This document shows positions 11,052 through 39,249 of a stretch of 64,000 bases of DNA, piece by piece (positions within the stretch are counted from its first letter, which is position 1; the number at the start of each line of letters is the position of its first letter). A model generated the notes under the pieces. The model saw nothing but the letters and a program-made list of their open reading frames with translations. It made no database searches and was not told the DNA's origin. The stretch covers positions 1 through 64,000 of the forward strand of contig NZ_SMSG01000008.1 in assembly GCF_004382795.1 (NCBI RefSeq). Reading direction: 5' to 3'. The stretch comes from Cumulibacter soli. Its GTDB lineage: Bacteria > Actinomycetota > Actinomycetes > Mycobacteriales > Antricoccaceae. The position numbers and the translations under genes were made by a program.

Positions 11052-11068
11052 GTGCTGATCCCGATGAA

Positions 11069-11647: not shown

Positions 11648-11689
11648 GTATCCGGGTCCGACTCGCGCAGAAAAACTCTGTCCCCGGTA

Positions 11690-11719
11690 TTGACACGGTT
11701 CGGGTTGTTCGCTCAAAAT
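11690..11719 (+). promoter_or_regulatory. Promoter candidate for the crotonase/ABC operon
   Basis: A perfect TTGACA (11690-11695), an 18-base spacer and CAAAAT (11714-11719; four of six match TATAAT). It lies about 100 bases before the ATG at 11822. Confidence 0.45.
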
Positions 11720-11821
11720 CGGGCCACTGACCCATTAAATGTTTTCTGAGTCACACGTCGCGTCGGCGTCGAGCGTCAGGGCTGCGAATCCGCGCGCACA
11801 CGCAATCGCTGAGGAGTGCAC

Positions 11822-12592: not shown

Positions 12593-12638
12593 TTCAGCGA
12601 ATCCTCCGTTTTAGAGATCTAGACAGCCAGGAGATCCG

Positions 12639-14255: not shown

Positions 14256-14312
14256 CGCACGAAGGCAACCGCACCGACTAATCCGACACCACATCGACAG
14301 GGGGGTTCGTGA

Positions 14313-16141: not shown

Positions 16142-17175
16142 TGGCGATCGGCACCAGCAGTGCTGCGTCCGCTGCGATCGAACCGCTACTGAAGGTCGAG
16201 GGACTGTCGGTCGAGTTCGATATCAACGACGAATGGCGGCGCGTCGTCGACGATGTTTCCTTCACCATTAACCCAGGCGAGACCATGGGGCTGGTAGGAG
16301 AATCAGGATCCGGTAAGACGGTCACATCGATGGCCATCATGGGTCTGTTGTCGAAGCGGATTAGCCGAATCTCCAGTGGTCGCATCGATTTTGAAGGCAC
16401 CGACCTACTGGCGCTACCGGAGAAGAACCTCACCGCACTATGCGGCGACCGCATTTCAATGATCTTTCAGGAGCCGATGACTAGTCTCAATCCGGCCTTC
16501 ACCGTAGGGGAGCAGATCGCGGAGTCCGTTCGGCGTCACCGCAAGGTGAGTCGCAAACAGGCGAAGGCGCGCGCAGTCCAAGCCTTGTCAGATGTCGGTA
16601 TTTCGGCGGCCGAGAGGCGCGCGAACGCCTACCCATATGAATTCTCCGGCGGAATGCGTCAGCGCGTCATGATCGCCATGGCCCTGTGTTGTGAGCCGAA
16701 GTTGCTGCTCGCTGACGAACCCACAACGGCGCTGGACGTGACGATTCAGGCGCAGGTGCTCGACCTGCTGCACCATATGCGCGACACGCTCGGAATGTCG
16801 ATCCTGTTCGTCACGCATGATCTAGGCGTCATTGCGGATATCGCCGATCGAGTTGCGGTCATGTATGCGGGTCAAGTTGTCGAACGTGGCGGAGTCATCG
16901 ACACCTTTGAAGCGCCGTCGCACCCATACACTCGTGCACTGTTACGGGCGATGCCAATGAACGCCGGAGACGATGGCCGCTCGGCGCTGTATTCGATTCC
17001 TGGCAGTCCGCCGACTGCTGGAGCTTTCCCGCCAGGATGTCGTTTTGCCCCGCGCTGCGACCTAGCGAGCGATGCGTGCGAAGAATCGGAGATTGCGCTC
17101 CTCACGCACGGTGAGCGCGACTCCCGGTGTATCAAGATCGACGAAACCCTCGCGTTGCAGAGGAGTCAGGTATGA
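16141..17175 (+). CDS. ABC transporter ATP-binding protein (DppD/OppD type)
   Basis: The first of two importer ATPases (344 aa). Walker A is GESGSGKT near residue 50, the Q-loop IFQEPMTSLNPA, the signature FSGGMRQRVMIAMAL, Walker B LLLADEPTTALD, and the switch His in VTHDLGVIA. The C-terminal oligopeptide-transporter domain holds CRFAPRCDLASDAC, a cysteine-rich [4Fe-4S]-type segment seen in this subfamily. ATG at 16141 has AGGAGGA upstream. The stop overlaps the next start as ATGA. Confidence 0.95.
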   Translation: MAIGTSSAASAAIEPLLKVEGLSVEFDINDEWRRVVDDVSFTINPGETMGLVGESGSGKTVTSMAIMGLLSKRISRISSGRIDFEGTDLLALPEKNLTALCGDRISMIFQEPMTSLNPAFTVGEQIAESVRRHRKVSRKQAKARAVQALSDVGISAAERRANAYPYEFSGGMRQRVMIAMALCCEPKLLLADEPTTALDVTIQAQVLDLLHHMRDTLGMSILFVTHDLGVIADIADRVAVMYAGQVVERGGVIDTFEAPSHPYTRALLRAMPMNAGDDGRSALYSIPGSPPTAGAFPPGCRFAPRCDLASDACEESEIALLTHGERDSRCIKIDETLALQRSQV

Positions 17176-18212
17176 CCGAAACCCAGGACCCACTCCTGAC
17201 GGTGTCCGGGCTGGGCGTTGACTTCGCTTCGCGCCGCGGCCACAAACGAGTGACGGTACGAGCAGTCCGCGACGTTAGCCTTCAGATACGCCATGAGGAG
17301 ACGCTGGCGGTCGTCGGCGAGTCCGGAAGTGGGAAGTCGACGCTCGCACGCGCCGTTTTGCGACTGTTGCCCAATAGCGGTGGGACAGTCGTGCTGGATG
17401 CCACCGACCTGACAGCGTGCAAGGGCCGTGCGCTACGTGCGCAACGCAGGAATATGCAGATGGTCTTTCAGGATCCGTATTCGTCGCTGGATCCCTCCAG
17501 CACGATTCTGGGCATAGTGGGGGAACCACTACAAGAACACTTTCGGTTGCGTGGCGCGAAGCTGCGTGAGCGAGTGTGCGAACTGCTTGAGGCTGTGGGA
17601 CTCAACCGTGCGGTGGTCGATCGATACATTCATGAGTTCTCTGGCGGACAGCGCCAAAGACTTGCGATCGCACGAGCCATCGCGGTTGACCCCAGTCTCG
17701 TGGTTCTCGACGAGGCGGTCAGCGCGCTCGACGTGTCAACCCAGAATCAAATACTCGAACTGCTCATCCGGCTGCAGCGCGAGAAGGGACTGAGCTATCT
17801 GTTCATCTCCCACAACCTGGGAGTCGTGCGCTGGATCGCGGATCGCACGGCGGTCATGTACCTCGGCGAGATCGTTGAGGAGGGCCCTGCCGGGCGAGTG
17901 CACGAGTCACCGGCTCATCCATATACCCGCTCGCTGCTTGCGTCCATGCCCGTGCCGGACCCGGCGCGGCAGCGCGCGCGTGAACGCGCTGTACTGCGCG
18001 GCGAGACACCAGACCCGGCGGCCGAGCTGACGGGCTGCCCGTTCCGGGGGCGTTGTCCTGTCGAGATCGAGATCTGCGCCGAAGTCAAGCCGGACTTACG
18101 GCCCGTAGCCGGTGGCGGCAGCGCGGCGTGCCATCTGCTGCCGAGCCTCGACGGCCACTACGAACCAACACTGATCGCATCCAACGAAGGGACAACGCGC
18201 CATGAAGGATAG
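17172..18212 (+). CDS. ABC transporter ATP-binding protein (DppF/OppF type)
   Basis: The second importer ATPase (346 aa). Walker A GESGSGKST lies near residue 52, the Q-loop is MVFQDPYSSLDPS, the signature FSGGQRQRLAIARAI, Walker B LVVLDEAVSALD (Ala-Val in place of the usual Pro-Thr), and the switch His is in FISHNLGVVR. The C-terminal part has TGCPFRGRCPVEIEIC, the Cys-rich motif shared with OppF. The gene overlaps both neighbours: ATGA with DppD-like, and 11 bases with the thioesterase start. Confidence 0.95.
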   Translation: MTETQDPLLTVSGLGVDFASRRGHKRVTVRAVRDVSLQIRHEETLAVVGESGSGKSTLARAVLRLLPNSGGTVVLDATDLTACKGRALRAQRRNMQMVFQDPYSSLDPSSTILGIVGEPLQEHFRLRGAKLRERVCELLEAVGLNRAVVDRYIHEFSGGQRQRLAIARAIAVDPSLVVLDEAVSALDVSTQNQILELLIRLQREKGLSYLFISHNLGVVRWIADRTAVMYLGEIVEEGPAGRVHESPAHPYTRSLLASMPVPDPARQRARERAVLRGETPDPAAELTGCPFRGRCPVEIEICAEVKPDLRPVAGGGSAACHLLPSLDGHYEPTLIASNEGTTRHEG

Positions 18213-18558
18213 TTTGCAAGTCGGACTGAGCAACGTCGAGGAGCGTGAGATCACCGAGGACCTCACCACCGGGCATGTGGGCGGAACGCCCGTACTCAGC
18301 ACGCCGTCGATGATCGGGCTGATGGAGGGCGTCTGTCTGAATGCTGCCATCGCGCACCTCGACGATGACGAGACGACCGTCGGGATCCATGTGAACGTGT
18401 CTCATGTGGCGGGATCGGCGCTCGGCGAGCAGGTGACCGTTGCATGCCGACTTGCAGAGATCAACAAACGCCGACTCGTGTTCGAGGTGAGTGCTCGCGT
18501 GGGCGATCGGCTGCTGGGGGAGGGCACGCACCAACGAGCTGTCGTCAAGCTGAAATAG
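18202..18558 (+). CDS. Hot-dog thioesterase of the fluoroacetyl-CoA thioesterase (FlK) type
   Basis: A 118-aa hot-dog fold protein expected to hydrolyse a short acyl-CoA. It aligns without gaps across the active site of Streptomyces cattleya FlK. T34 (STPSM), E42 (GLMEGVC) and H68 (VNVSHVAG) correspond to T42, E50 and H76, with identical spacings of 8 and 26 residues. The ending GEGTHQRAVVKLK also matches the FlK ending GSGTHERAVIHL. True fluoroacetate specificity cannot be claimed; many FlK homologues act on other acyl-CoAs. It overlaps the upstream ATPase gene by 11 bases, tying it to the importer. Confidence 0.88.
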   Translation: MKDSLQVGLSNVEEREITEDLTTGHVGGTPVLSTPSMIGLMEGVCLNAAIAHLDDDETTVGIHVNVSHVAGSALGEQVTVACRLAEINKRRLVFEVSARVGDRLLGEGTHQRAVVKLK

Positions 18559-18565
18559 CGCGGTG

Positions 18566-19594
18566 ATGTCTCCGCCAAGCGGGCCGGCGACGATTACGTT
18601 GTCGACCCACCACACACGCGCGATCGTGACGGACGCATTTGCAGCGGCCGGTTTGGCCCTGGACGAGGCGTCACGGATCACCGACTCACTTCTTGAGGCC
18701 GAGTTGCGTGAAGTGCCGACACACGGGATTTTTCGGGTGCCCGGATACTTACAGCGACTGCGGGACGGATCGTTGGCGCCGGCCAGGGATCTGAGTATTG
18801 AATCGGTGACCGGCGCCTGCGGCATGATTGAAGCGCCCGGGTGTTTGGGATACCTGCCGACCTGGCTGGCCGTTGAGTCGGCGGTTCGCTCATCGCACGA
18901 GTTCGGCATCGGGGCATGCGGAGTGCGTGGCATATCCGAATTCGGTCGCGCGGCGTACTACGTCGCCCGGGCAGTGGACCTCGGCGCAGTGGCGATCGTC
19001 TGCCAGAACACGCAGCCGATACTTGCGGCACCCGGGGCCGCTGTAGCGACGCACGGTAACAACCCGATCGCGTTTGGCAGCCCGGGTGCCGATGCACCGA
19101 TCTTCGATGCGGCGCTGAGCCGTCGTTCGATGGGCGAGATTAAACGGCGATCCATGTTGGAGTTGCCGATTCCCCTGGAGTGGGGATATCTAGACGAAAC
19201 GGGTAAGCCCACGACCGATGCCGCTCGGGCCGCTGAATCGCCACAGCAAGCCGTGGGCGGCGCGAAAGGCTTCGGTATCGCCGTACTGGTCGACCTGCTA
19301 GCAGGAGTGCTCACCGGTGCTGCTAGCGGTCCAGCAGTTGTCGCCGGCGATGCGACAGTCGGCGCCATGGTCATCGCGCTCAGCCCCAAGCGCTTCGGTC
19401 TGTCTCAGGAAAATCTGGCCGATGCGTTCGGCAACAGTGCGCGGCATGTGCGTGATGCGGGCGGTCGATGGCCCGGTGACCGTGCCTCAGCAGCGGCGGA
19501 GCGGAACAGGATGGCCGAGTCGTTCGAGGTGCCGCAACCGATACTCGCGTCAGTCTGCACGTATATCCCGGAACTGGCGAACGCGGTCCGGTAA
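18566..19594 (+). CDS. Ldh2/malate-lactate dehydrogenase-like NAD(P) oxidoreductase
   Basis: A 342-aa member of the Ldh_2 family (type-2 malate/L-lactate/ureidoglycolate dehydrogenases), which reduce or oxidise a 2-keto/2-hydroxy acid. The catalytic His lies in REVPTHGIFRVPGYL near residue 50. The nucleotide-binding region follows in VRGISEFGRAAYYV and HGNNPIAFG. GAKGFGIAVLVDLLAGVLTG near residue 230 is a family landmark. A GTG one codon upstream of ATG 18566 is equally possible, and no strong ribosome site is visible. It is last in the plus-strand operon, and its 3' end converges on the CoA-transferase gene 63 bases away. Confidence 0.88.
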   Translation: MSPPSGPATITLSTHHTRAIVTDAFAAAGLALDEASRITDSLLEAELREVPTHGIFRVPGYLQRLRDGSLAPARDLSIESVTGACGMIEAPGCLGYLPTWLAVESAVRSSHEFGIGACGVRGISEFGRAAYYVARAVDLGAVAIVCQNTQPILAAPGAAVATHGNNPIAFGSPGADAPIFDAALSRRSMGEIKRRSMLELPIPLEWGYLDETGKPTTDAARAAESPQQAVGGAKGFGIAVLVDLLAGVLTGAASGPAVVAGDATVGAMVIALSPKRFGLSQENLADAFGNSARHVRDAGGRWPGDRASAAAERNRMAESFEVPQPILASVCTYIPELANAVR

Positions 19595-19657
19595 TCCTGG
19601 CACTTGGCATCAGCGGCTGGCACCTGCGGAGCCTTCACGTCCGCGGGCACTATCTCG

Positions 19658-20914
19658 TCACAGTGACAGTGGCCGATCACCGATCACATGATCGCGTTCG
19701 AGTTCCGCGTAGGTCTCAGCGGAGGTGCCCAGCTCATCACACAACACCTCGCGATTGTGTTCGCCCAGATACGGAGCACGTCGCGCATTGACGGTCGCTA
19801 ATGGAGTGTTGCGGTAGCTGAAAGGCTGACCCGGATACTGCTTGGGGCCCGTACCGGCCCGATCCTGCACGAGATAGAAGTTTCGGGCGGCGAAATGTGG
19901 ATCTTCCAGTGCGCGACGTCCATCGGCGACGACTGCCGCGATCACGCCGCGCGACTGCAATTCATACATGACGTGCTCTGCGTCTCGGGTGCTGCTCCAC
20001 TCGTTGATCATGGCATCGATTTCGTCGTGCCGCGCCATTCGTTCGTCGAGGTTGAGTTCATGCAGTGCCTGAGGTGCGCCGATGTGGGCGGCAAGCGCGG
20101 CCCACTGCTGTTGCGATTCGCAGGCTATTGCGACCCAGCTGTCCGATCCTGCGCAGCGATAGATTCCTTGTGGCGCGTGGTGCGGGCTACGGTTACCGAG
20201 CCGCCCAGGCTCGGTGGACGAGAGCTGCGCTTCGACGAGTTTGTCGCCGACGAAACTCGTCGCAGTCTCCACCTGGCTCAGGTCGACGTGCTGGCCCTCG
20301 CCGGTGGCGCGGCGATGCCGCAACGCCGCGAGAATAGCGATCGCGCCCATCAGTGCGGCTAGTTCGTCACCCCCGGTGGTACCGGTGAAAACAGGTGGTC
20401 CGTCGGCATAGCCGGTGAGGTGGCACATGGTGGACATTTGCTCGGTGGTCCACGCGAACGCCGTGTAATCCCGCCACGGACTGCTCACGCCGAATCCGGG
20501 CATGGACACCATGATCAGATCCGCACGCACGGATCTCAGGTCCGCGTAACCGAGGCCGAACCCTGTCAATACCCGGGGTGTGTAGTTCTCCACGAGTACG
20601 TCGCTGGTCGCCGCCAGTCGACGGAACAGGTCGCGGCCGCGCTCATCTTGCAGGTTGAGGGTGATTCCGCGCTTGTTGCGGTTCGCCCAATTGAAGGCGG
20701 GCGAGTTCTCCCACTGATCCTCGCCTCGACCGACACCGCGCCAGCCGTCGACTCGTTGGATGGATTCGACTTTGATGACGTCGGCGCCGAGGTCCGCCAG
20801 CGGTTGTGTCGACATCGGGCCCGACTGGAACTGAGTGAAATCGAGGACCCGCACCCCGTCAAGCGGCAGCACTCCGCGATTCGTGACAGATTCGTTTGCT
20901 GCTTCGGTGGTCAT
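19658..20914 (-). CDS. CaiB/BaiF (class III) CoA-transferase
   Basis: A 418-aa enzyme transferring CoA between carboxylic acids, through an acyl-Asp intermediate in this family. It opens with LDGVRVLDFTQFQSGPMSTQPLADLGADVIKVES. The catalytic Asp is in TTGGDELAALMGA near residue 185, followed by RHRRATGEGQHVDLSQ. LGEHNREVL near the C-terminus completes the family pattern. Its ATG overlaps the stop of the next CoA-transferase gene as ATGA. Two adjacent class III genes of equal size suggest either a heteromer or two successive transfers; the sequence does not decide. Confidence 0.94.
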   Translation of the reverse strand: MTTEAANESVTNRGVLPLDGVRVLDFTQFQSGPMSTQPLADLGADVIKVESIQRVDGWRGVGRGEDQWENSPAFNWANRNKRGITLNLQDERGRDLFRRLAATSDVLVENYTPRVLTGFGLGYADLRSVRADLIMVSMPGFGVSSPWRDYTAFAWTTEQMSTMCHLTGYADGPPVFTGTTGGDELAALMGAIAILAALRHRRATGEGQHVDLSQVETATSFVGDKLVEAQLSSTEPGRLGNRSPHHAPQGIYRCAGSDSWVAIACESQQQWAALAAHIGAPQALHELNLDERMARHDEIDAMINEWSSTRDAEHVMYELQSRGVIAAVVADGRRALEDPHFAARNFYLVQDRAGTGPKQYPGQPFSYRNTPLATVNARRAPYLGEHNREVLCDELGTSAETYAELERDHVIGDRPLSL

Positions 20915-22134
20915 CCGATGACCCCTTCTTGACGGAGTTGCTGGATGTGCGCGGCATCGAGGCCGAGCACCGATTGCATGACCGCGTCCGTCGCGTTGCC
21001 GAGCGCCGGAGGCGGCGTTGGGGCTGACGGGGATGCGCCCATCACGAACGGCACACGCGGCGTACGGATTGGCCCGACGCCGGGGATGTCGTGCGTGCAG
21101 AAGTAGTCGCGCGCCCGATGGGGGTCGAGTTCGAGGGCTTCACTCGGGGACGGGACAAGCCCAAATGGCAGTCGCCATTCCTGCGCCTCGTGGAACGCCT
21201 CATGCGTTGACTTATCGCCCAGAGCTTGCTGTGTTGCCTCGCGAATCGAATCGATCGCAGCGAGTCGCCCTTCGGCCTCGGCAAGCGATTCATCCGCGAT
21301 GAATTCGCCGCGTCCGATGAACGCGCATTGCAACTCCCACTGCGGGGTTGTGAGCACGTTGATACCCAGGTAGCCATCAGTGCACTCAACGAAGTACGAC
21401 GGGCCCGTCATGTAATCAGAATGCCGCCCGTCGAGTTCCTCCCAATATTCCCAGCGCATCGGATGCAACATGGTGCAGGTCAGCGCAGCCTCGTGGCCGC
21501 ACACATCGATGACATCGCCGCGATCGGTGCGCTCCCGGAGTTCAAGCCCGCCGATCGCGGCGAGCGCGGCGTACGCGCCGGTGACCGTGTCAGCGAGTGA
21601 GCCGCCCGGCTGTAGGGGTTCGCGGTCGGGCGCACCACAGGTCGCCGCCCAGCAACCTAGAGCAGCGAGAGCCAAGGGATTGCCCTGGAAGTCCCGATAC
21701 GGCCCGGTTGATCCAAAGGGCGACACGCACGTGATGATGAGGCGCGGAAACTTCGACGCTAACTCGTCGATAGTGAACGGACCGACGCTGCTGTCGGTGC
21801 GTCCGGCCAGGATCACAATGTCAGCTGACTCCAACAGCGGGGCGAGAATCTCTGGCGAGGCGTCGTCGGTCTGCAGCGCAACACTTCGCTTTGAGGTATT
21901 GAAATACAGGAACTCTGCAGAAGCCGGTAATTGATCTCCGTCACCGCTGCGGGACCTGCCGCGAGACGGATCGCCGCGCTCGGGCGGCTCGATCTTCAGC
22001 ACATCGGCTCCGAGGTCGCCAAGGAGTTTGGCTGCATAAGCGGTGGCGGTGGACGAGCCGAACTCAAGAACACGACTACCGGCCAGCGGTCCAGAGCGTC
22101 GTTCGGCATCCGGGCCGGTGATGGGAGTGGTCAT
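20911..22134 (-). CDS. CaiB/BaiF (class III) CoA-transferase
   Basis: A 407-aa class III CoA-transferase, the first gene of a two-gene minus-strand unit. The N-lobe begins LAGSRVLEFGSSTATAYAAK and LGADVLKIEPPERGDP. The catalytic Asp is in GSLADTVTGAYAALAAI near residue 175. The start at 22134 is supported by AGGAGG six bases upstream. A strong promoter (TTGACA-18-TATAAA) lies at 22176-22205. It is divergent from the TetR gene, the likely regulator of the pair. Confidence 0.94.
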   Translation of the reverse strand: MTTPITGPDAERRSGPLAGSRVLEFGSSTATAYAAKLLGDLGADVLKIEPPERGDPSRGRSRSGDGDQLPASAEFLYFNTSKRSVALQTDDASPEILAPLLESADIVILAGRTDSSVGPFTIDELASKFPRLIITCVSPFGSTGPYRDFQGNPLALAALGCWAATCGAPDREPLQPGGSLADTVTGAYAALAAIGGLELRERTDRGDVIDVCGHEAALTCTMLHPMRWEYWEELDGRHSDYMTGPSYFVECTDGYLGINVLTTPQWELQCAFIGRGEFIADESLAEAEGRLAAIDSIREATQQALGDKSTHEAFHEAQEWRLPFGLVPSPSEALELDPHRARDYFCTHDIPGVGPIRTPRVPFVMGASPSAPTPPPALGNATDAVMQSVLGLDAAHIQQLRQEGVIG

Positions 22135-22175
22135 CGATAGCCTCCTGCAGGGGTGAATATCGGCCAACTGCCTGA

Positions 22176-22227: not shown

Positions 22228-22236
22228 CGTATAAAT
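22228..22236 (+). promoter_or_regulatory. -10 region for the tetR gene, mirror of the divergent one
   Basis: CGTATAAAT with TATAAA at 22230-22235; the -35 is weak. It forms an inverted repeat with 22175-22183. An ATG at 22235 overlaps this -10, which favours the GTG at 22268 as the true TetR start. Confidence 0.45.
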
Positions 22237-22267
22237 GCGGTTAACGAATTTCAGGAGGTCCTCCACT

Positions 22268-22876
22268 GTGCCCACGACCGCAAGTAGATCTGCCGGGCGG
22301 CCGCGCGACTCCAACGGCGAACGCACGCGGGCGCTGCTCATTGATGCGGCGATTGAGATGTTCTCGCGCCAAGGTCTCGCGCGTACCACGCTGAGAGATA
22401 TCGCCGAAGCAGCGAACCTCTCGGGCGGAACGCTGTACCACTACTTCAATTCCAAGGCGGACCTGTACCGCGCCGCCTATCTATGGGCGATTGAGGACCA
22501 GTTCACCGATATGCGTGCGGCTATCCGCGGTAAACGTACGGTGCGATCACGCATGGTAGCGGTGATTGAGCGCAACTACGAACGCTCTTTCTCGAAACCG
22601 CAAGTGATGAATTTCGTGCTTCGGGCTTGGGTCGAGCACAACGCGGAGGACCAGCAGCCGCTACCCGTGCCGGACTATGTCGGCGAACTGTATGACGCCA
22701 TCATTGGCGATGGGGTCGAGAACGGGGAGGTGAGTGCTGGCGGCGCGCAACGGGTCATTGATGCCCTGCGCTGTATGCAGTGGGGGATCTCGGCGCTGGC
22801 AGTGACCGGACGCAGCCCGAAGGAAGCGGTCGAAGGCCTGAAGGCCTTCGTGGCTGACCCGCTCGCTCGAGTGTGA
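22268..22876 (+). CDS. TetR/AcrR-family transcriptional regulator
   Basis: A 202-aa repressor-type protein. The N-terminal HTH domain has TRALLIDAAIEMFSRQGLAR, then TTLRDIAEAANLSGGTLYHY as helix-turn-helix and FNSKADLYRAAY. The C-terminal ligand domain is helical and specific to this regulator. GTG at 22268 is chosen because AGGAGGT lies eight bases upstream, while the alternative ATG at 22235 sits inside the -10. It is divergent from the CoA-transferase pair, so self-regulation plus control of that pair is the simplest reading. An acyl-CoA is the likely ligand (inference). Confidence 0.92.
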   Translation: MPTTASRSAGRPRDSNGERTRALLIDAAIEMFSRQGLARTTLRDIAEAANLSGGTLYHYFNSKADLYRAAYLWAIEDQFTDMRAAIRGKRTVRSRMVAVIERNYERSFSKPQVMNFVLRAWVEHNAEDQQPLPVPDYVGELYDAIIGDGVENGEVSAGGAQRVIDALRCMQWGISALAVTGRSPKEAVEGLKAFVADPLARV

Positions 22877-22993: not shown

Positions 22994-24391
22994 TTAGATG
23001 CCGTGGCTGGGTCCGGATGCGCCCTCGGCGAGCCCGGCGGCTTCCTTCGCGGACTGCATGGCGGCTTCCATGTCGTAGTGCTTGCGGGTCACGATGCGCT
23101 GCGCGTACAGACCCCCACCGGCCTGAATGTTCGTGACCTGCTTCCAGCCGCCGTACGAATCGGCAGTAAGGTCGCGGATCGCGTGGAACAACCGGGTGCG
23201 ATATTCGCCCTCGGAGGCTCCCGACATGTACTTCGACACGAGCGGGCCGATCTCGTCGTTCTCCAGATCGGAGATCGAAGGTGCGGTCACGATCGCGCCG
23301 CCGGCGATGTCATGCAGGTGACGCACCATCAGGTTGTAGTTCGCGGCGCCGGTGTACTTGCCGGCGTTCGTGTAGAGCTCGCTGGGGAACACCGCGCCGA
23401 GCGCGCCGGTCTCGGCGTGCGTGAGTGCGGCCTCCAGGCACGCGCGCACCGTCGTCGCGTGGATGATCATCTCCGAGATCTTCTCGCGCACGTGCGACAT
23501 CCGGCCAAGGCCATTGGCGTTCGCGATGAGCTGCGCGAGACCGACCATGACATCGGCGCCGTCCGCCATTGAGCTCAGGCCGCCCAGGCGCTCCCATAGC
23601 CCGAGTGAGTGCGCGAACACGGCGGCACTGCCGGACTCGCCGTCCAGCATGATCCGCTCATTAGGCACGAAGACGTCGTCGAAGATGACGAAGCCTTCGG
23701 GGAAGCTCTCCTGGCCCGACACGGGGAAGTCGCGGGTATCGGCATGCCGTGGCGCGTAGGTCGTGTTCACGATCTTGACGCCTTCGGCGTTCACCGGCAC
23801 CATGGCGGCGATTGCGTACTGCTCTTCACCCTGGCGCATGGACTTCGTCGGAATCGTCAGAAGTTCGTGGCCGAACGAGGCCGCCGTGATGTGCAGTTTG
23901 GCGCCGCGGATGACAACGCCATCAGCCTGGCGGTCCACGACACGGACATACTGGTCCTCGTCCTTCTGCTCTCCAGGGTGCTTCGCGCGATCACCTTTGG
24001 CGTCGGTGATGCATTGGGTGATGCGGACATCACGGTCCTGCGCGTCCTGCATGATGGCTTGGATCCGCTCGACGTAATCGGGCGCGGATTCCTTGAGGCG
24101 TCCGGCGGCAGTGGCCAGAGTCTGCAGCGATGTGTAGGTGACGTGCGCGATCATTCCCGCGTGGTGGACGAGTTCGACCGATGCGCGTAACTCCTCTTTC
24201 GTCTTCGGGATGCCGCTGAGCGGGCTCTTGCCATCGATGGCATTCGCGTTCAGCCAGTCGTACCCGTGGGCAACATTATCGACGACACCGCCGAGCAGTG
24301 GATGGTTTGGCAGGTCCTTGACTCGTTCTCCGTCAAAGAATGTTGCGCGCCCGTCATCGAGCGAATCCTTGTACTGGGCTCCGGTGAGCAT
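22994..24391 (-). CDS. HpaB / 4-hydroxybutyryl-CoA dehydratase-family flavoprotein (paralogue 1)
   Basis: A 465-aa acyl-CoA-dehydrogenase-fold flavoprotein of the 4-hydroxyphenylacetate 3-hydroxylase family. It starts MLTGAQYKDSLDDGR and carries ITDAKGDR near 128-135, VIRGAKLHITAASFGHE, and VFDDVF-like FDDVFVPNERIML near 240. Compared with the Clostridium 4-hydroxybutyryl-CoA dehydratase cluster ligands (C99, C103, H292, C299), H311 and C318 in IIHATTVRACLE keep the His-x6-Cys pair, but the N-terminal CxxxC is absent. A complete [4Fe-4S] site is therefore unlikely, and oxygenase or other flavin chemistry is possible. SD AGGAGA lies six bases upstream. It is last in a four-gene operon with two ACADs and a ligase. 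Confidence 0.88.
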   Translation of the reverse strand: MLTGAQYKDSLDDGRATFFDGERVKDLPNHPLLGGVVDNVAHGYDWLNANAIDGKSPLSGIPKTKEELRASVELVHHAGMIAHVTYTSLQTLATAAGRLKESAPDYVERIQAIMQDAQDRDVRITQCITDAKGDRAKHPGEQKDEDQYVRVVDRQADGVVIRGAKLHITAASFGHELLTIPTKSMRQGEEQYAIAAMVPVNAEGVKIVNTTYAPRHADTRDFPVSGQESFPEGFVIFDDVFVPNERIMLDGESGSAAVFAHSLGLWERLGGLSSMADGADVMVGLAQLIANANGLGRMSHVREKISEMIIHATTVRACLEAALTHAETGALGAVFPSELYTNAGKYTGAANYNLMVRHLHDIAGGAIVTAPSISDLENDEIGPLVSKYMSGASEGEYRTRLFHAIRDLTADSYGGWKQVTNIQAGGGLYAQRIVTRKHYDMEAAMQSAKEAAGLAEGASGPSHGI

Positions 24392-24409
24392 GTGTATCTC
24401 CTATATCGG

Positions 24410-25636
24410 TTACGCGCGTTTGCGCTGGTTGAAGGGAACGCCACGCTCGGGGTCCACATCGCGTGGTAGTCCGAGCACACGTTCGCTGATGATGTTCTTC
24501 TGGATTTGGGTCGTGCCCCCTGCGATGCTCGTGGTCTTCATCGCGAGGAAGTCCTGCGAGACCCGTCGTTCCTGTTCATCACTCCAGGCCAGAGCGTGCT
24601 GGGGGTCGATCTCGGCCGCGAGGGTGCCGAAGCCCTCCTCGATTGACGCGTTGACGAGTTTTCGAATCGATCCCTCGGCGCCGACGCCACCGGGCCCGAC
24701 CTCGGCGAAGGAGCGCATCGTGGTCATCTGCAGCGCGCGTTCTGTGACCACCAGCTTCAGGATCGCGTCTCGAAGCAGCGGATCGTCCCACGCGCCATTG
24801 CTGCGCGCCCGGCTGATGAGCTCATCCGAGACACCCTCGCCGACCGCCGGACGCCCGGTCAGACCGCTGCGCTCAGCCATCAGAGTCGTGATCGCGACCG
24901 ACCAGCCGCCGTTGACCTCACCGAGTACGGCGTCCGCCGGGACAACGACGTCGGTCAGAAAGACCTCATTGAACTCGGCGTTGCCCGTCATCTGGCGCAG
25001 TGGTCGCGCCTCGACGCCCGGCAGCGACATGTCCAGCAGGAAGTAGGTGATTCCCTTATGCTTCGGCGACTGCGGGTCGGTCCGCGCCATCAGCAATCCG
25101 AACTCGGACACGTGCGCGTACGAGTTCCACACCTTTTGGCCGTTGATCAGCCACGACCCATCCTCCTGCCGCACTGCGCTCGTGGAGAGCCCGGCCAGAT
25201 CCGAACCAGCGCCCGGTTCGCTAAAGAGCTGGCACCACCGATACTCGGCGCGGGCCAGCGGGCGCAGGAAGCGTGTCTTCTGTTCGGTCGTGCCGTGGGC
25301 CAGGATGGTCGACCCGGCGAGTGCGAGCCCGACGAAGTCATCCATACCCCGACCGGCGCGATAGTGCTCGAGAGCGTCGGCGATCGGCGCGGACTCATCT
25401 TGGCTGAGTTCCAGGCCACCGTATTCGCTGGGCCAGGTCGGTGTCGCTAACCCCGAGTCGCCGAGCGCCGCGAACCACGGTTTGCATACCGAATCATCGG
25501 CACGTAACTTCTCAACGGCCGCCCAATCGCGCGCTTCGGCCGCCTCGCGCCACTGCTCGGGCAGATTGCTGCGGATCCAATCGTGTGCGATCGCGCCGAT
25601 CTGTTCTTCGGTGGCGTTGGTCGGCAGTTCGATCAT
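24410..25636 (-). CDS. Acyl-CoA dehydrogenase family protein (subunit A of a pair)
   Basis: A 408-aa FAD flavoprotein introducing a 2,3-double bond into an acyl-CoA. It has ATPTWPSEYGGLELSQDES, the FAD/substrate motif CQLFSEPGAGSDLAGL near 135, GQKVWNSYAHVSEFGLL, and a C-terminus with GGTTQIQKNIISERVLGLPR, typical of the ACAD family. The start lies inside the 3' end of the preceding ACAD gene (4-base overlap). Adjacent, unequal ACAD genes in actinobacteria commonly form alpha2beta2 heterotetramers with one active-site type (established for FadE/ChsE pairs); here that is inference. Confidence 0.93.
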   Translation of the reverse strand: MIELPTNATEEQIGAIAHDWIRSNLPEQWREAAEARDWAAVEKLRADDSVCKPWFAALGDSGLATPTWPSEYGGLELSQDESAPIADALEHYRAGRGMDDFVGLALAGSTILAHGTTEQKTRFLRPLARAEYRWCQLFSEPGAGSDLAGLSTSAVRQEDGSWLINGQKVWNSYAHVSEFGLLMARTDPQSPKHKGITYFLLDMSLPGVEARPLRQMTGNAEFNEVFLTDVVVPADAVLGEVNGGWSVAITTLMAERSGLTGRPAVGEGVSDELISRARSNGAWDDPLLRDAILKLVVTERALQMTTMRSFAEVGPGGVGAEGSIRKLVNASIEEGFGTLAAEIDPQHALAWSDEQERRVSQDFLAMKTTSIAGGTTQIQKNIISERVLGLPRDVDPERGVPFNQRKRA

Positions 25637-26751
25637 GCGCTGGCTCCCTCGGTAGCCGGGGTGAGGACATCTGCTAGACGGGCGCGCCAGGACGCGGGCG
25701 TACCCAGCAGCCCGTACGCGGCGCGGGCACGACGCGCGTAGAGGTGGGCGTTGTGTTCCCAGGTAAAGCCGATCCCGCCGTGCAGCACAATGCAGTCCTT
25801 GGCCGCCTGCAGCGCTGTCTCGGATGCCTGACTGCGGGCAACTGCGGCGCCGAGTGCGAAGTCGTCAGATCCCGGCTCTTGCCAGGCCGCCCAGTATGCC
25901 GCCGAACGGGCCAATTCCAACGGTACGAGAACATCAGCCAACCCGTGTTTCACCGCTTGGAAGGACCCGATTGGCCTGCCGAACTGATGGCGGGTCTTGG
26001 CGTAGTCGGTCGTCTGCTCCAGCAGTGCGGTCGTCGCGCCGACCTGTTCGGCAGCCATCCCAATCGCGGCGGTCTGCAAGGTGCGCTCAAGGATCTTCGT
26101 GCCGTCCCCACGCGCGCCAACTCTCTTCGCTGGGGCGTCGCGCAGTTCAACGTCGCAGAGCGAGTGCGTGCCGTCGAGGGTGTCGCGGCTCAGGATCGTC
26201 GCGTCCGATGCTTGCACCGCGAATACGGAGAGTTCGCCGGCATCGAGTGCGGACACAAACAGGACGTCGGCGGCGTCGGCGTCCAGTACGAGCGTCTTCG
26301 AGCCGGAGAGCCGGTCGCCATCGGCGACAGTGGCGATGTTCGGGTCCAGCCAACCCAAGTTCGCCGCTTCGGCGGCAGCGACGGTAGCTTTCAACTCACC
26401 GGCGGCGATACCGGGCAGGTACTCCTGGCGGGTCGTCTCGTCACCGGATTCCTGCACTGCGGTGGCGGCGAGTACGACGCTCGCGAAGAAGGGGCCGCCG
26501 TACAGCACGCGGCCCATTTCCTCCAGCACGATGCAAAGATCGACCAGCGAGCCGCCCATCCCGCCGGCGTCCTCGGCTATGGCGATGGCATGAGCGCCCA
26601 GTTGGTCAGCAAGCGTCGACCACGTTCCGCGATCGGACCATCCGTCGGCGTCAAGCGCCGCGCGCGCTTGCGCGATGCACTCCTCACCACCGAGCAGCCG
26701 GCGCACCGCGTCGCGCAGCGCGTGCTGCTCATCGGTCCAGTCGAACTCCAT
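25633..26751 (-). CDS. Acyl-CoA dehydrogenase family protein (subunit B of a pair)
   Basis: A 372-aa ACAD-fold protein. N-terminal MEFDWTDEQHALRDAVRRLL and GGMGGSLVDLCIVLEEMGRV are typical of the smaller partner in heteromeric actinobacterial ACADs. The C-terminus has IVLHGGIGFTWEHNAHLYAR, the conserved His/Glu-rich segment. The central SEPG-type FAD motif is replaced by AAAEAANLGWLDP, which is divergent, so FAD binding may depend on the partner. It starts directly after the ligase stop and overlaps its partner by 4 bases. Confidence 0.93.
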   Translation of the reverse strand: MEFDWTDEQHALRDAVRRLLGGEECIAQARAALDADGWSDRGTWSTLADQLGAHAIAIAEDAGGMGGSLVDLCIVLEEMGRVLYGGPFFASVVLAATAVQESGDETTRQEYLPGIAAGELKATVAAAEAANLGWLDPNIATVADGDRLSGSKTLVLDADAADVLFVSALDAGELSVFAVQASDATILSRDTLDGTHSLCDVELRDAPAKRVGARGDGTKILERTLQTAAIGMAAEQVGATTALLEQTTDYAKTRHQFGRPIGSFQAVKHGLADVLVPLELARSAAYWAAWQEPGSDDFALGAAVARSQASETALQAAKDCIVLHGGIGFTWEHNAHLYARRARAAYGLLGTPASWRARLADVLTPATEGASA

Positions 26752-28317
26752 CTAGCCCACCTTCCATGTCCGCAGGTCTCGTTTGAGAATCTTCCCGCTG
26801 GCATTTGTCGGCATCTCGTCAATCACGATGAACTCTGCGGGCACCTTGTATCGGGCGAGGCTCGCGTTGCAGTGTTCGGTCAATTCCGCACTGCTGACTT
26901 CGGCGCTCACGGTCAGGAACGCGCGTACCGTCTCACCCCAGTGTTCGTCCGGCACACCAACGACAGCGCTCTGCACCACGGCCGGATGCTCGGCGAGCAC
27001 GTCCTCGATTTCATGCGGATAGATGTTCTCTCCACCTCGAATGATCATGTCCTTCTTGCGTCCGTGCAAGTACAGGTAGCCGTCCTCATCCAGATATCCC
27101 ATATCGCCGGCGCGGAACCATCCGTCGCGCAGCGCATACTCGGTAGCCTCGCGCATCCCGAGGTATCCGTTCATCACCTGGTCGCTGCGGGTGGCGACTT
27201 CACCGACTTCGCCCGGAGGCAGCGGGTTCATATCGTCGTCCACGATCCGCATCGCGACGCCGAACGACGGGCGGCCATTTGAGCCGAGGAGCTTGGGTTC
27301 GCCGGCCAACGCGCGACGATGATCCTCAGGGGTCAGGACCGCCTGCAGGCCGGCCTCGGTGCCAGCTCCGAAGGCCTGTAGGAAGTCGCACCCGAAGGTG
27401 TCCAATGCTCGACGAAGCAACCCCGGCGTGATGGGGGAGGCGCCGTAGGTGATCAACTCGAGGCGGTCGTAGTCGTGATCAGCCACGCCGTCGAGTTGCA
27501 GGATGGTGCTGATCATCGTCGGCACGAGAAATGCGGCGCTGAGTTCATCGCGCGCCATCAAATCCAAAACGCGGACGGGGTCGAACTGCGGCATCAGGAC
27601 CGACGTGAACCCGACTGCGATACCCATATACAGGCCGCACACGCCGGATATGTGGAAAGTGGGCGCTGCGCAGTAGCGGATGTCGTCGGCCGATGCGCGA
27701 TAGTCGACCGCGCATGACTGGGTTATGGATTTCATCATCCGTTGTGACTGGATGACGCCCTTGGGCAGACCAGTAGTTCCAGAGGTGAAGGCGAGGGCGA
27801 GGATGTCCTCGTCATTGCAGATGACATTCGGCTCTGATTGCGCACCGGTGGCCAGCAGGCGCTCATAGTCGGAGTCGGCGCCGTCGAATGTAATCCACAT
27901 GCGTATTGCGGGATGCTGCTCTCGCAGCGGCGCCAGTAAGTCGGCGTACCGCTCGTCGAAGAAGAACGCGTGTGGCTGCGCGCGTTCGAGTAGCGTGCCT
28001 ACTTCCGAGGTCATCAACCGGTAGTTCAGCGGCACGTACGCCACGCCCATCTTCATGCAGGCGAGGATGAGCTCGATGTATCGGTGCGAATCAAGGGCGA
28101 GTACGGCGATGCGATCGCCTCGCGTGAACCCCTCGCGTCGCAGTGCATCCACGAGTTGATTCACCCGCGCGTTCGTCTCGGCGAACGATTGGCAACGGCC
28201 GTCCGGAAGGATGAACGCTGCCTTGTCACGCTCCCGTTCGGCGCTCAGCGTCAGCATTTCGCCGACCGTGATGTGCGGGCGTGCAGCGAATTGCGAAGTG
28301 AGTTCGGGGGACGACAA
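26752..28317 (-). CDS. Acyl-CoA synthetase (AMP-forming)
   Basis: A 521-aa ligase making an acyl-CoA for the downstream dehydrogenase pair. It shows LAFTSGTTGLPKGV (A3) near 175, QAFGAGTEAGLQAVL in place of the usual YGxTE (A5), WFRAGDMGYLDEDGYLYL (A7), GRKKDMIIRGGENIYPHEIE (A8), and a terminal NASGKILKRDLR with the catalytic lysine. I choose TTG at 28315-28317 because GGAGG lies five bases upstream; a GTG at 28383 would add a poorly conserved, Arg-rich leader. It is first gene of the minus-strand operon running to the HpaB-like gene. The atypical A5 motif (Gly-Ala-Gly-Thr-Glu) is worth noting. Confidence 0.92.
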   Translation of the reverse strand: MSSPELTSQFAARPHITVGEMLTLSAERERDKAAFILPDGRCQSFAETNARVNQLVDALRREGFTRGDRIAVLALDSHRYIELILACMKMGVAYVPLNYRLMTSEVGTLLERAQPHAFFFDERYADLLAPLREQHPAIRMWITFDGADSDYERLLATGAQSEPNVICNDEDILALAFTSGTTGLPKGVIQSQRMMKSITQSCAVDYRASADDIRYCAAPTFHISGVCGLYMGIAVGFTSVLMPQFDPVRVLDLMARDELSAAFLVPTMISTILQLDGVADHDYDRLELITYGASPITPGLLRRALDTFGCDFLQAFGAGTEAGLQAVLTPEDHRRALAGEPKLLGSNGRPSFGVAMRIVDDDMNPLPPGEVGEVATRSDQVMNGYLGMREATEYALRDGWFRAGDMGYLDEDGYLYLHGRKKDMIIRGGENIYPHEIEDVLAEHPAVVQSAVVGVPDEHWGETVRAFLTVSAEVSSAELTEHCNASLARYKVPAEFIVIDEMPTNASGKILKRDLRTWKVG

Positions 28318-28383
28318 TCGGGCCTCCGGGTTTCCTCGACCGACGGACGACCCGGCCCTGTCGCGGGCGGGCCGACACACCAA

Positions 28384-28401
28384 GGTGACGTGCGCGTCAC
28401 C
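28384..28401. promoter_or_regulatory. Perfect inverted repeat, candidate operator
   Basis: GGTGACG-TGCG-CGTCACC, a perfect 7-base inverted repeat with a 4-base centre. It lies just downstream of the expected start of transcription from the minus promoter at 28410-28438, where a repressor would block it. Confidence 0.5.
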
Positions 28402-28409
28402 TTCCTTCG

Positions 28410-28438
28410 GTTCTACGGCGTGGTGGATGATCTGTCAA
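28410..28438 (-). promoter_or_regulatory. Promoter of the ligase/ACAD/HpaB operon
   Basis: On the minus strand TTGACA (28438-28433), a 17-base spacer, and TAGAAC (28415-28410; four of six match TATAAT). The expected leader to the TTG start at 28317 is about 85 bases. Confidence 0.55.
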
Positions 28439-28453
28439 ACATTTACGTGCATT

Positions 28454-28467
28454 TGATCGTACGTTCA
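28454..28467. promoter_or_regulatory. Near-perfect 14-base palindrome
   Basis: TGATCGTACGTTCA, symmetric except for one base pair position in each arm. It lies between the two divergent promoters, upstream of both -35 elements, and could bind an activator or a TetR-type dimer. Confidence 0.4.
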
Positions 28468-28485
28468 GTATGTGCCCTCAAGACG

Positions 28486-28513
28486 TTGACATGTCTACCC
28501 CCGCGGTGACAAT
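28486..28513 (+). promoter_or_regulatory. Promoter candidate for HpaB-like paralogue 2
   Basis: TTGACA (28486-28491), a 16-base spacer and GACAAT (28508-28513). It leaves an untranslated leader of about 100 bases before the ATG at 28619. Confidence 0.45.
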
Positions 28514-28618
28514 CTCGAATTGACCCACCTGTAAATTTCGCCCCGATTCCGCGGCGGCGTACGCGCTCCGGTGTGTGGTCTTCAGCCCCTGGGGCCGCGC
28601 ATCATGAGATGAGGTTCA

Positions 28619-29995
28619 ATGCTCACTGGACAGCAATACAAGGATTCGCTGCACGACGGTCGCAAGGTGTACTTCGAAGGCCGCCTGATCGAGGACTTCG
28701 CGGACGAGCCCGCGCTGGGCGTCCCGATGAACGTGGCGGCTGAGGGATACGACAAGTACTACGACGGCACTCCGGGCGCGGTCAATCCGCTGATTGACGC
28801 GCCCCGTAGCGTCGAGGAACTGCGCGACAAGATTCCATCTCTGATCGAGATGGACCTGCTGCTGAACACCACCTACCAATCGTTGATGACGCTGGCGGTC
28901 GCCGCACCGCAGATTGAGGGTGCGGCTCCTGAATGCGTCCCGCGGATCCATGAATACCTGCAGGCCGCCCGCGTCGGGGACATCCGGATCACCGAGTGCA
29001 TCACCGATGCAAAGGGAAACCGCAGCCGCCCGCCAGCCAAACAGGATGACCCAGACTCGTACGTGCGGGTGGTAGATCGTGGTGCGGACGGCGTCGTGAT
29101 CCGCGGCGCCAAGCTCCACATCAGCGCAGCGGCATTGGGCCATGACCTGATGGTGATGCCGACCAAGACGATGAAACCGGGCGAGGAGGACTACGCGATC
29201 GCGTGCGCCGTACCGGTCAATTCGCCGGGCGTGCACATCACGAATACGACGTACCACCCGTTGGCCGGCGACGCCCGCGACTTCCCGGTGTCCTCGCAGC
29301 ACAGCGTGCCGGACAGCATGTGCATCTTCGATGACGTGTTCGTGCCGTACGAGCGGGTCTTCCTCGATGGTCAGAGCGCACAGGCAGCGGTGTTCGCGCA
29401 TTCGCTCGGCCTCTGGGAGCGGCTGGGCGGGACGGCGTTCATGGTGCAGCAAGCTGACGAATTGGTCGGCCTCGCGCACCTGATCGCCGAAGCCAACGGG
29501 ACTCTGAAGATTTCGCACGTGCGCGAGAAGATCGACGAGATGATCATCCACGCCAGTTTGCTGCGTGCCGGCCTGGAAGCCGCGATCACCAACGCCGGAT
29601 CGACGCCCGAGGGGTACTACTACCCGGACGACATGTACACCAACGTGACCAAGTATCAGGGTGCGGTGCAGTTCAGCACGATGGTGCGACACCTGCACGA
29701 CATCTCGGGAGGTGCCGTTCTCACCGCGCCGTCGATGTCGGACTTCGACAACCCGACGCTGCGGCCATTCCTAGAGAAGTACATGTCGACCGGGAACGAT
29801 ATCGCCGGCGAGTACCGCACCAAACTGTTCCACGCGATCCGCGACACCACCGCGGATGCCTACGGCGGCTGGCATCTGGTGACCAACCTGCAGTCCGGCG
29901 GCGGGCTGTTCGCGCAGCGCTTGGTCACTCGTCGGCACTACGACATGGACCGGGCGCGCGCGTTAGGTCTGCGCGCCGCGGGCCTGGGCGACTGA
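28619..29995 (+). CDS. HpaB / 4-hydroxybutyryl-CoA dehydratase-family flavoprotein (paralogue 2)
   Basis: A 458-aa paralogue of the protein at 22994-24391. The two align colinearly with no gap over the first 320 residues (both have ITDAKG at 128-133, VVIRGAKLHI at 159-168, and the same SHVREKI segment at 299-305). Here H311 is kept in IIHASLLRAGLE, but the position equal to C318 is Gly, and the N-terminal CxxxC of 4-hydroxybutyryl-CoA dehydratase is absent. A [4Fe-4S] dehydratase is therefore unlikely; a flavin-dependent oxygenase or isomerase is more plausible. SD GAGG lies six bases upstream. It is transcribed alone, divergently from the ligase/ACAD/HpaB operon. Confidence 0.88.
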   Translation: MLTGQQYKDSLHDGRKVYFEGRLIEDFADEPALGVPMNVAAEGYDKYYDGTPGAVNPLIDAPRSVEELRDKIPSLIEMDLLLNTTYQSLMTLAVAAPQIEGAAPECVPRIHEYLQAARVGDIRITECITDAKGNRSRPPAKQDDPDSYVRVVDRGADGVVIRGAKLHISAAALGHDLMVMPTKTMKPGEEDYAIACAVPVNSPGVHITNTTYHPLAGDARDFPVSSQHSVPDSMCIFDDVFVPYERVFLDGQSAQAAVFAHSLGLWERLGGTAFMVQQADELVGLAHLIAEANGTLKISHVREKIDEMIIHASLLRAGLEAAITNAGSTPEGYYYPDDMYTNVTKYQGAVQFSTMVRHLHDISGGAVLTAPSMSDFDNPTLRPFLEKYMSTGNDIAGEYRTKLFHAIRDTTADAYGGWHLVTNLQSGGGLFAQRLVTRRHYDMDRARALGLRAAGLGD

Positions 29996-32544: not shown

Positions 32545-34392
32545 TCAGGCGGGCCGCAGCCCGTGCACTTGCATCACGAACCGTAGCCGGCTGACATCGC
32601 CGAGGTTCTGCAGATCAAGTCCGGTCAGCTCGCTGACGCGCTCCAATCGGTACCGCACCGTGTTCTCGTGCACCCCGAGCGTCTTGGCGCTCGCGCGTAT
32701 CTTGCCGTCCGAGGCGAGAAAGGAACGTACGGTCGGCATTAGTACATTCTCAGGATCCGCTGCACAGATGGGATCTACGAGGTCCGCGGCGTACTCCGCG
32801 GCCTGTCGCAGACCACCGGTGACGGCTGTCAGTGCGACCAAGGGCATCTGGCGCATCAGCACCGACTGAGACGCAGTGCCGAGGTCCTCCAGGGCGTTTT
32901 CGAACGCGCGAGCCTCTTCGGAATGGCGCGGCAGTTTCGCAAGCCCACACACCGGTGGGCAGACGAACAGGTATTGGGCGCCTTTTCGTTGTACACGTGG
33001 AAAGTAGGTGCTCAGCGCGGACTCGACGTGGGCTGGGCCCACCTCGTCCGGAAGCGTGATCAAGAATAAGTCCGCTCCAGGCACGCCCGTGCCGAGCAAG
33101 CTGTAGTCCCTGCCGAGTTCGTTGCGCAGTTCGGCCTCGATCTCGCCGCGCCGTGTCGTACCGGTATAACTCGCGCTTTCCACGCCGTACGAAATGCGTA
33201 CCAACACATGCTGTGCATCTGCGCGTACGCCGAACACATGCGCACGGTCGCTGAGCAGCCCCGGTTCGCGCTGCCCGTGCAGCACATCGGATAGGAAGTC
33301 TCGTCGGGCGAGATCCGCGTTTTCGCCATGTTGTATATCGGTCAGCAGCTTCAGCGCGACGGCGAAGGTAGCTTGCGCGAGGATTTTCGAGTCGAAGGCC
33401 GCGAATCGCCGCCCCTGTTCCACGAACTCCAGGAACCCTTGATGCCGGCGCCCTATCGTCATCGGGTTGATCAAGCGCCGATGGTGCGATCCGATCGCAG
33501 GTATAGGCGGAATCTCCACCGTTTCGCGCAGTCCTTGGATCACCAGGTCTTTCAGGCGCGGGACCCGCAACGCGTTACGGGGGAGCGTCGGCGGTCGCTG
33601 ATGCTCCATTCGCTCCGGGAGTGAGGCGGCGATCAATGCCAGATCCGGGCCGTACACGAGCACCGGAAGTCCGGCGATCTGCTGGACCCGGTCCAGTACC
33701 GATTGCAGATCGCCTCCGGCGAGCATAATCTCGGTCAGTTCGGTAGAGATCTGCGATAGTCGATTAAGGTTGCGGTTCTGGCTGACGATTGTCCGATGCC
33801 GCGCCTCCAACTCTTTGTGCAGCTCACCCTGCCGGATCGCGATCGCCGCCAGAATCCCGAAGGCGCGCGCCGTCGACATGTCGGCGTCGGTGTACTCATG
33901 CGGGCGTTCCTCGTTGTCGATATAGATCATGCCGATGACAGCGTCACTGACCACCAGCGGGACAACCAGTAGATCCCGAACCCCGAAGTACTTCATCGCG
34001 CGCTGGTTGGGGCGCGGATCTCGCTGCGCGTCGCGCACCAGTATCGGCTCGCGAGCGTGAACCGCCTCGGCCGTCATCCTGTCCCTGCCGGTCACCAGCG
34101 AGCGCACTTCGTCACCCATATCGCCAGCCCGGGCCCAGCCGACGTGGCATTGGAAGTTCTCTTCGTCCCGCCGCAAGTAGACCGTGCAGCGACTGACTCC
34201 GATCAACTCACAGAGCCGGCGTCCGATTAGACGCAGGACCTGTTCGAGGCCGGTATCACCGGCCATCGTCGTCAGCGCGATTTCTTCGAACGCGCTCACG
34301 ACGTTCGCGTACTGGACGGCCCGCGTGGATGCGGGGAGGGCGGTAGGGCCATCCTTTCCTGCTACCGCATTGTCGTGCTTCATCTGCGACAT
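32545..34392 (-). CDS. GAF-domain PucR/CdaR-family transcriptional regulator
   Basis: A 615-aa regulator. A GAF sensor domain spans about residues 35-195 (RLCELIGVSRCTVYLRRDEE, then RDLLVVPLVVSDAVIGMIYI). A central CdaR/PucR-type linker follows. The C-terminal PucR HTH is FLASDGKIRASAKTLGVHENTVRYRLERVSELTGLD, seen around residues 560-600 (landmarks ASAKTLGVHENTVRYRLERV). PucR proteins usually activate nearby catabolic genes in response to a substrate. It is divergent from the NTF2/LLM pair and tail to tail with the ligase, both candidate targets. No ribosome site is obvious at the chosen start. Confidence 0.92.
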   Translation of the reverse strand: MSQMKHDNAVAGKDGPTALPASTRAVQYANVVSAFEEIALTTMAGDTGLEQVLRLIGRRLCELIGVSRCTVYLRRDEENFQCHVGWARAGDMGDEVRSLVTGRDRMTAEAVHAREPILVRDAQRDPRPNQRAMKYFGVRDLLVVPLVVSDAVIGMIYIDNEERPHEYTDADMSTARAFGILAAIAIRQGELHKELEARHRTIVSQNRNLNRLSQISTELTEIMLAGGDLQSVLDRVQQIAGLPVLVYGPDLALIAASLPERMEHQRPPTLPRNALRVPRLKDLVIQGLRETVEIPPIPAIGSHHRRLINPMTIGRRHQGFLEFVEQGRRFAAFDSKILAQATFAVALKLLTDIQHGENADLARRDFLSDVLHGQREPGLLSDRAHVFGVRADAQHVLVRISYGVESASYTGTTRRGEIEAELRNELGRDYSLLGTGVPGADLFLITLPDEVGPAHVESALSTYFPRVQRKGAQYLFVCPPVCGLAKLPRHSEEARAFENALEDLGTASQSVLMRQMPLVALTAVTGGLRQAAEYAADLVDPICAADPENVLMPTVRSFLASDGKIRASAKTLGVHENTVRYRLERVSELTGLDLQNLGDVSRLRFVMQVHGLRPA

Positions 34393-39232: not shown

Positions 39233-39249
39233 GATTTCCTTCCCCGCCG

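Follow-up and report, generated by a model that had tools for sequence, protein, structure and literature searches.

The first 64,000 nucleotides of contig NZ_SMSG01000008.1 of the actinomycete Cumulibacter soli (assembly GCF_004382795.1; this whole stretch is called the window below) encode two paralogous HpaB-family proteins, here named HpaB1 and HpaB2. As the original prediction, made from the letters of this DNA, had stated, they flank an acyl-coenzyme A (acyl-CoA) dehydrogenase (ACAD) pair and a ligase, and open reading frames (ORFs) and Pfam matches confirm this arrangement. Our results suggest, at a probability of roughly 0.43, that both proteins are iron-free flavin adenine dinucleotide (FAD) enzymes acting on acyl-CoA with a glutamate base, as dehydrogenase, lyase or isomerase. 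As part of the same reading, they would be old, separately maintained paralogues on the side of the HpaB fold where AbfD, a 4-hydroxybutyryl-CoA dehydratase (4HBD) and vinylacetyl-CoA isomerase, is found. The two proteins share 56% identity across a 458-column alignment that contains 2 gap columns, match Pfam HpaB_N and HpaB far over the cut-off, and are the only two matches to PF03241 in the genome (E<=0.001).

We take C99, C103, H292 and C299 to be the [4Fe-4S] ligands of AbfD, and Y296, K300 and E455 to be its catalytic residues. HpaB1 and HpaB2 were aligned by MAFFT with AbfD (1u8v), N. maritimus 4HBD (6vjr), the hydroxylases 2yyg and 9lft, and relatives. A second alignment with more relatives has 64 rows, 19 of them outside the clade of the window proteins, and four of these 19 are typed references. 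The clade was defined by at least 48% identity to either window protein, a cut chosen here, and comprises 43 distinct sequences; same-place duplicates and fragments (frameshifted L024 and partial L035) were left out, and G053 equals L006 in sequence. The AbfD numbering holds in the alignment, where the expected letters stand at C99, Q101, C103, T190, E257, H292, Y296, C299, K300 and E455. The H292 column is Glu in 43/43 clade proteins (E267 in HpaB1). The C299 column corresponds to residue 274, which is Ser in HpaB1, Phe in HpaB2 and S, F, Y, A, E, H or Q across the clade. None of the 43 has Cys in the C99 and C103 columns, although the alignment around 99-103 differs between the two alignments, and the CxxxC motif is absent from all of them. 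The catalytic positions have also changed: Y296 is replaced by Gly (42/43) or Ser (1/43), K300 by Met (38/43) or L, F or Y, and E455 by Thr (42/43) or Ser (1/43). The AbfD scaffold residues D151, K153, R156, Q163, K186, H188, T190 (or Ser) and H196 are kept in the clade, as D130, K132, R135, Q142, K165, H167, T/S169 and H175.

These alignments bear on most of the original prediction. The N-terminal CxxxC is indeed missing from both paralogues, and HpaB2 indeed has His followed by Gly (H311/G318). The H311-x6-C318 pair of HpaB1 is present as letters, but its proposed identity with H292-x6-C299 of AbfD does not hold: the pair aligns with L336 and C343, 44 residues downstream of H292/C299, so the wrong helix had been compared and we rejected H311/C318 as an AbfD ligand pair. 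Residue 318 is Cys in 9/43 clade proteins, and HpaB2 carries a second H-x6-C elsewhere (H228/C235). Because H311/C318 fall on L336/C343, and the true positions are E267 and residue 274, both paralogues lack all four ligands and share the Glu at H292, instead of each having lost a part of the set. It had been anticipated that other cysteines in the fold might supply the ligands. HpaB1 has two Cys in total, Cys is entirely missing from one clade protein and occurs once in two others, and these counts, with the absence of CxxxC from the clade, led us to reject replacement cysteine ligands. As judged from the sequences, an AbfD-type [4Fe-4S] cluster cannot be held by either paralogue.

In place of the iron ligand, the clade has a signature of its own. 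Where AbfD has Tyr-His292-Arg, W266-E267-R268 occurs in 43/43 clade proteins, and Glu at this column is found in none of the 19 other alignment rows. In the AlphaFold2 (AF2) model of HpaB1, E267 is residue 15 of a predicted 40-residue helix (253-292) after the beta domain. The catalytic base of human long-chain acyl-CoA dehydrogenase (LCAD) is Glu291, residue 13 of helix G (279-317), and that of isovaleryl-CoA dehydrogenase (IVD) is Glu254 (PMC11153573). An hhalign comparison of the clade with the ACADa type places E267-R268 on E255-R256 of ACADa, in a profile match that is not significant (E 0.26). It is a good lead, although not proof, that E267 may occupy the place of the LCAD/IVD-type base.

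The structural and phylogenetic comparisons place the pair near the dehydratases. The AF2 models (pLDDT, the predicted local distance difference test, 90.7 for HpaB1 and 91.7 for HpaB2) match 6vjr and 1u8v best over the full-length fold (Z 43.1-44.1), hydroxylases at 37.7-42.5 and ACADs at about 24-25; Foldseek with HpaB1 also ranks 6vjr and 1u8v first. In a midpoint-rooted IQ-TREE tree of 51 of the 64 alignment rows, for which the tool warned of long branches, the clade (34 rows, support 100/99) groups with AbfD and a sister group of 31-33% identity, apart from the hydroxylases. Within it, the HpaB1 subclade has 9 rows (100/100) and the HpaB2 subclade 15 (100/99). The clade thus resembles AbfD in fold, scaffold residues and CoA-ester setting, but differs from it at all the ligand and catalytic positions listed above and is ~25% identical. 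With LCAD and IVD it shares the superfamily fold and a catabolic context, and a Glu is predicted to lie on the long post-beta helix as in those enzymes; in contrast to them, HpaB1 and HpaB2 match HpaB domains only and no ACAD Pfam domain, the identity is 10-17%, and the base is one that we infer.

The genomic setting of the relatives points to catabolism of CoA esters. A scan with HpaB2 gave 22 loci, in Nocardioides, Actinomadura, Pseudonocardia, Geodermatophilus, Rhodococcoides and metagenome-assembled genomes (MAGs). Across the families represented, HpaB2-type genes keep 76-82% identity to HpaB2, and the closest ACADa, ACADb and ligase in these loci, where present, mostly show 54-62%, 44-51% and 61-66% identity. 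The recurring island is beta-oxidation-like and contains a leucine-isoleucine-valine (LIV)-type ATP-binding cassette (ABC) importer, AMP ligases, one or two ACAD pairs, several crotonases, a short-chain dehydrogenase/reductase (SDR), a thiolase, an alpha/beta hydrolase and a TetR gene, not every member being present in every locus. In larger islands, HpaB1 stands beside crotonases and HpaB2 beside the importer and ligases. An HpaB1-type gene is also present in 12/18 genomes with an HpaB2-type gene, the frameshifted gene in L024 not being counted, so the co-occurrence that the original prediction proposed to look for does recur. In Geodermatophilus (L011) the two genes adjoin each other with 239 bp between them; in G443, G444, G447 and G459 they share a contig at a distance of about 20-25 kb. 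An obligate pair was rejected as a strict rule, given the genomes that carry one type alone (see below). The clade is rare: 5/394 genomes match in a survey of the class (E<=1e-120, own genome included), and 6/396 in a survey of the phylum (E<=1e-100, own included), two of which are the 32% sister type, leaving 4 of the clade. In the literature searched, which took in few subscription papers and no bioRxiv preprints, we found no description of the clade or of its actinobacterial catabolic island, and no name for its substrate.

Three kinds of relatives were noted in addition. In a Streptosporangiales MAG (L024:161-1563), an HpaB2-type gene is broken over three frames, by sequencing error or as a pseudogene. 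The sister type of 31-33% identity (L094, L095, L096, L047 and L048) resembles the clade in its AbfD-side scaffold and in lacking ligand cysteines, being Cys-less, but differs in keeping Tyr-His-Arg at AbfD H292 and the Lys of K300; a flavin reductase follows within 80 bp in two Pseudonocardia genomes, and the Rhodococcus opacus PD630 member, despite having no ligand cysteines, bears the annotation 4-hydroxybutyryl-CoA dehydratase. A further HpaB-family type (L044:9763-11223 and L045:9429-10898) has Tyr-Ser-Ala at AbfD 291-293 and a long tree branch.

We then propose a mechanistic model for HpaB1 and HpaB2. Both would bind FAD, and the CoA thioester made by the neighbouring ligase would be their substrate. 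From its predicted place on the long post-beta helix, E267 would take the alpha proton, and the beta hydrogen would go to flavin N5. The reaction would be either a dehydrogenation or, redox-neutrally, an elimination or a double-bond shift, and would involve neither an iron-sulfur (Fe-S) cluster nor O2. BbuA (PMC8364193) is a precedent for redox-neutral elimination from acyl-CoA by an ACAD-like flavoenzyme. As a working analogy only, BbuA, which eliminates trimethylamine from gamma-butyrobetainyl-CoA, shares flavin elimination and the ACAD superfamily with our model, and its cluster also has class III CoA-transferases; it differs in belonging to another family, and the ~10% identity given in its paper is its identity to 4HBD.

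A real difference between the paralogues is Q126 in HpaB1 and E126 in HpaB2, in the column of H142 of Thermus thermophilus HpaB (TtHpaB). When 6 HpaB1-type rows are set against 26 other rows of the clade, 15 columns show a near-fixed difference, and this is one of them. This difference, together with the different neighbours in larger islands, suggests that HpaB1 and HpaB2 act at two different steps of one pathway, or on two of its substrates. It is tempting to speculate further, and we do so tentatively, that the Trp-Glu-Arg clade represents a third chemistry of the HpaB/AbfD family: an AbfD-like enzyme that has lost the radical Fe-S site, has an ACAD-style Glu at the vacated iron-ligand position, carries out O2-independent flavin chemistry on acyl-CoA, and exists as two old paralogues for two steps of an undescribed catabolic pathway in actinobacteria.

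A serious rival, which we hold to be somewhat less probable, is that the pair are FAD monooxygenases of the two-component kind and use reduced flavin, diffusing from an unlinked reductase, to hydroxylate an aromatic or alicyclic intermediate bound to CoA. The family names speak for it, as do the fold and Pfam domains shared with the FAD phenol hydroxylases HpaB, TftD, HadA and PnpA, and in structure the hydroxylases come close to the dehydratases, the best of them trailing by a Z of only 1.0 to 1.9. The C. soli genome has four PF01613 flavin reductases that could serve an oxygenase, and the nearest of these (55636-56376) is separated from HpaB2 by about 26 kb of the window. In sister-type genes, a PF01613 reductase lies 42 and 78 bp downstream in 2/3 cases; the third (G453, no reductase) is 459 bp from the contig end and so is weak evidence. 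From these linked reductases, the comparison suggests that the AbfD-side scaffold can also be an oxygenase. However, we take R100, Y104 and H142 to be the substrate residues of TtHpaB (the letters agree in the alignment), and their columns hold no R, Y or H, respectively, in 43/43 clade proteins. HpaB1 and HpaB2 score far under the cut-offs of the HpaB-1 and HpaB-2 equivalogs (TIGR02309, 166.7 and 157.8 bits against 480.2; TIGR02310, 82.2 and 98.9 against 885.2). No PF01613 reductase was found within 10 kb of any of 33 clade genes in 18 genomes (G449 left out), the nearest being at 20 kb and some contigs short. Since unlinked flavin reductases are present in all 18 genomes, the missing linkage weighs against a two-component oxygenase without settling the matter. 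BLAST searches with three of the four C. soli reductases found no match in the 33 island loci (the fourth, L055, gave no query), and there is no ring-cleavage dioxygenase among the annotated recurring island genes, single-locus genes mostly falling outside the annotation. The idea that one of the paralogues may be an oxygenase, part of the original prediction, thus found no support, with the three TtHpaB residues absent from both and no flavin reductase linked.

Two further explanations concern the Fe-S site and catalysis itself. That the pair are AbfD-like Fe-S dehydratases whose lost ligands are replaced by other residues of the fold would suit their closest solved structures, which are two AbfD-type dehydratases, and the Cys at position 127 in 38/43 clade proteins; set against the few cysteines, the invariant Glu at H292 and the replacement of Y296, K300 and E455 throughout the clade, it is highly improbable. 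That one or both paralogues are non-catalytic partner subunits, for example of a heteromer with half of its active site lost, is unlikely. Actinobacterial ACADs often work as unequal pairs, the ChsE4-ChsE5 complex is among the structure matches of the HpaB2 model, and the neighbouring genes in Geodermatophilus would fit such a heteromer, but both paralogues have the same signature residues and each type is found alone, HpaB2-type without HpaB1-type in 6/18 genomes and HpaB1-type alone in four more.

The solitary occurrences also weigh against our preferred reading of the pair as acyl-CoA flavoenzymes, as do the genomic reductases, the oxygenase-like sister type and the small Z lead. The helix-G match rests on a ~25%-identity alignment, a predicted helix and the insignificant profile match. 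With two ordinary ACAD pairs already present in the larger islands, there is no obvious need for an extra dehydrogenase. In addition, no crotonase, SDR, thiolase or LIV importer is found among the 31 window proteins scanned against Pfam (bases 1-19657 left out), and the pathway context is therefore taken from relatives; the genes in this set that fit the pathway are the ligase, one ACAD pair, the nearby CoA-transferases and a second ligase only.

Features of the locus in the window (AF2, AlphaFold2; ORF, open reading frame; PDB, Protein Data Bank)
Feature	Positions	Strand	Basis
HpaB1: HpaB-fold protein, 465 aa, AbfD-side clade, W266-E267-R268, Q126	22994-24391	-	ORF, Pfam, alignments, AF2, PDB match
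HpaB2: paralogue, 458 aa, W-E-R signature, E126	28619-29995	+	ORF, Pfam, alignments, AF2
ACADa: acyl-CoA dehydrogenase subunit, E255-R256 where the helical C-terminal part begins	24410-25636	-	Pfam, alignment
ACADb: partner acyl-CoA dehydrogenase subunit, no Glu-Arg aligned at the place of ACADa E255-R256	25633-26751	-	Pfam, NCBIfam, alignment
AMP-forming acyl-CoA ligase, first gene of the minus-strand run	26752-28383 (start possibly 28317)	-	ORF, Pfam
TetR-family regulator adjoining HpaB1 (possible regulator)	22235-22876	+	Pfam
Two family III CoA-transferases (possible alternative CoA activation)	19658-22167	-	Pfam
Divergent control region	28384-28618 (28318-28618 if the ligase starts at 28317)	.	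Intergenic sequence
Perfect 9+4+9 palindrome, candidate operator	28382-28403	.	Sole exact copy in the genome

The minus-strand run reads ligase, ACADb, ACADa and HpaB1, with gaps of 0, -4 and 18 bases and HpaB1 last. The best NCBIfam score of ACADb is to IpdE2, under the cut-off. HpaB2 diverges from the ligase; the 301-base region between them in the original prediction presupposes the TTG ending at 28317 as ligase start, and otherwise the region is 235 bases long. It contains a single sigma-70-like site directed toward HpaB2, at 28486-28513(+), for which shuffles give a mean of 0.1. Coordinated divergent control of HpaB2 and the ligase run is plausible in view of the candidate operator. Among 107 loci, exact copies of the palindrome were confined to the C. 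soli window (L001, L036) and to L004, where the copy is about 8 kb away, downstream of HpaB2; with no exact match at the corresponding place in related loci, it was rejected as a conserved operator.

Other loci of the window were noted in passing. A GAF-PucR regulator (32545-34392) has a 38% homologue in G032 (L042:13073-14890), where a clade paralogue and several ligases share a stretch with it. A ferric-siderophore-like locus (36133-44175) encodes an enterochelin-esterase-like protein, a FecCD permease, an ABC ATPase, a binding protein and a protein like flavin-containing monooxygenases (FMO) and ornithine hydroxylases. Genes for a branched-chain 2-oxoacid dehydrogenase-like complex (E2, E1 beta and E1 alpha) lie at 47855-51372, and a family III CoA-transferase protein with two matched stretches is encoded by a 786 aa ORF at 52516-54876.

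If our reading of HpaB1 and HpaB2 is true, a scaffold known from radical Fe-S catalysis can support flavin chemistry without iron, with Glu replacing the iron-ligating His, and the division of labour between Fe-S cluster and flavin in 4-hydroxybutyryl-CoA dehydratase would become testable by comparison. Our reading also cautions against relying on the names "4-hydroxybutyryl-CoA dehydratase" and "4-hydroxyphenylacetate 3-hydroxylase" within this branch of the family, and it marks an actinobacterial catabolic island.

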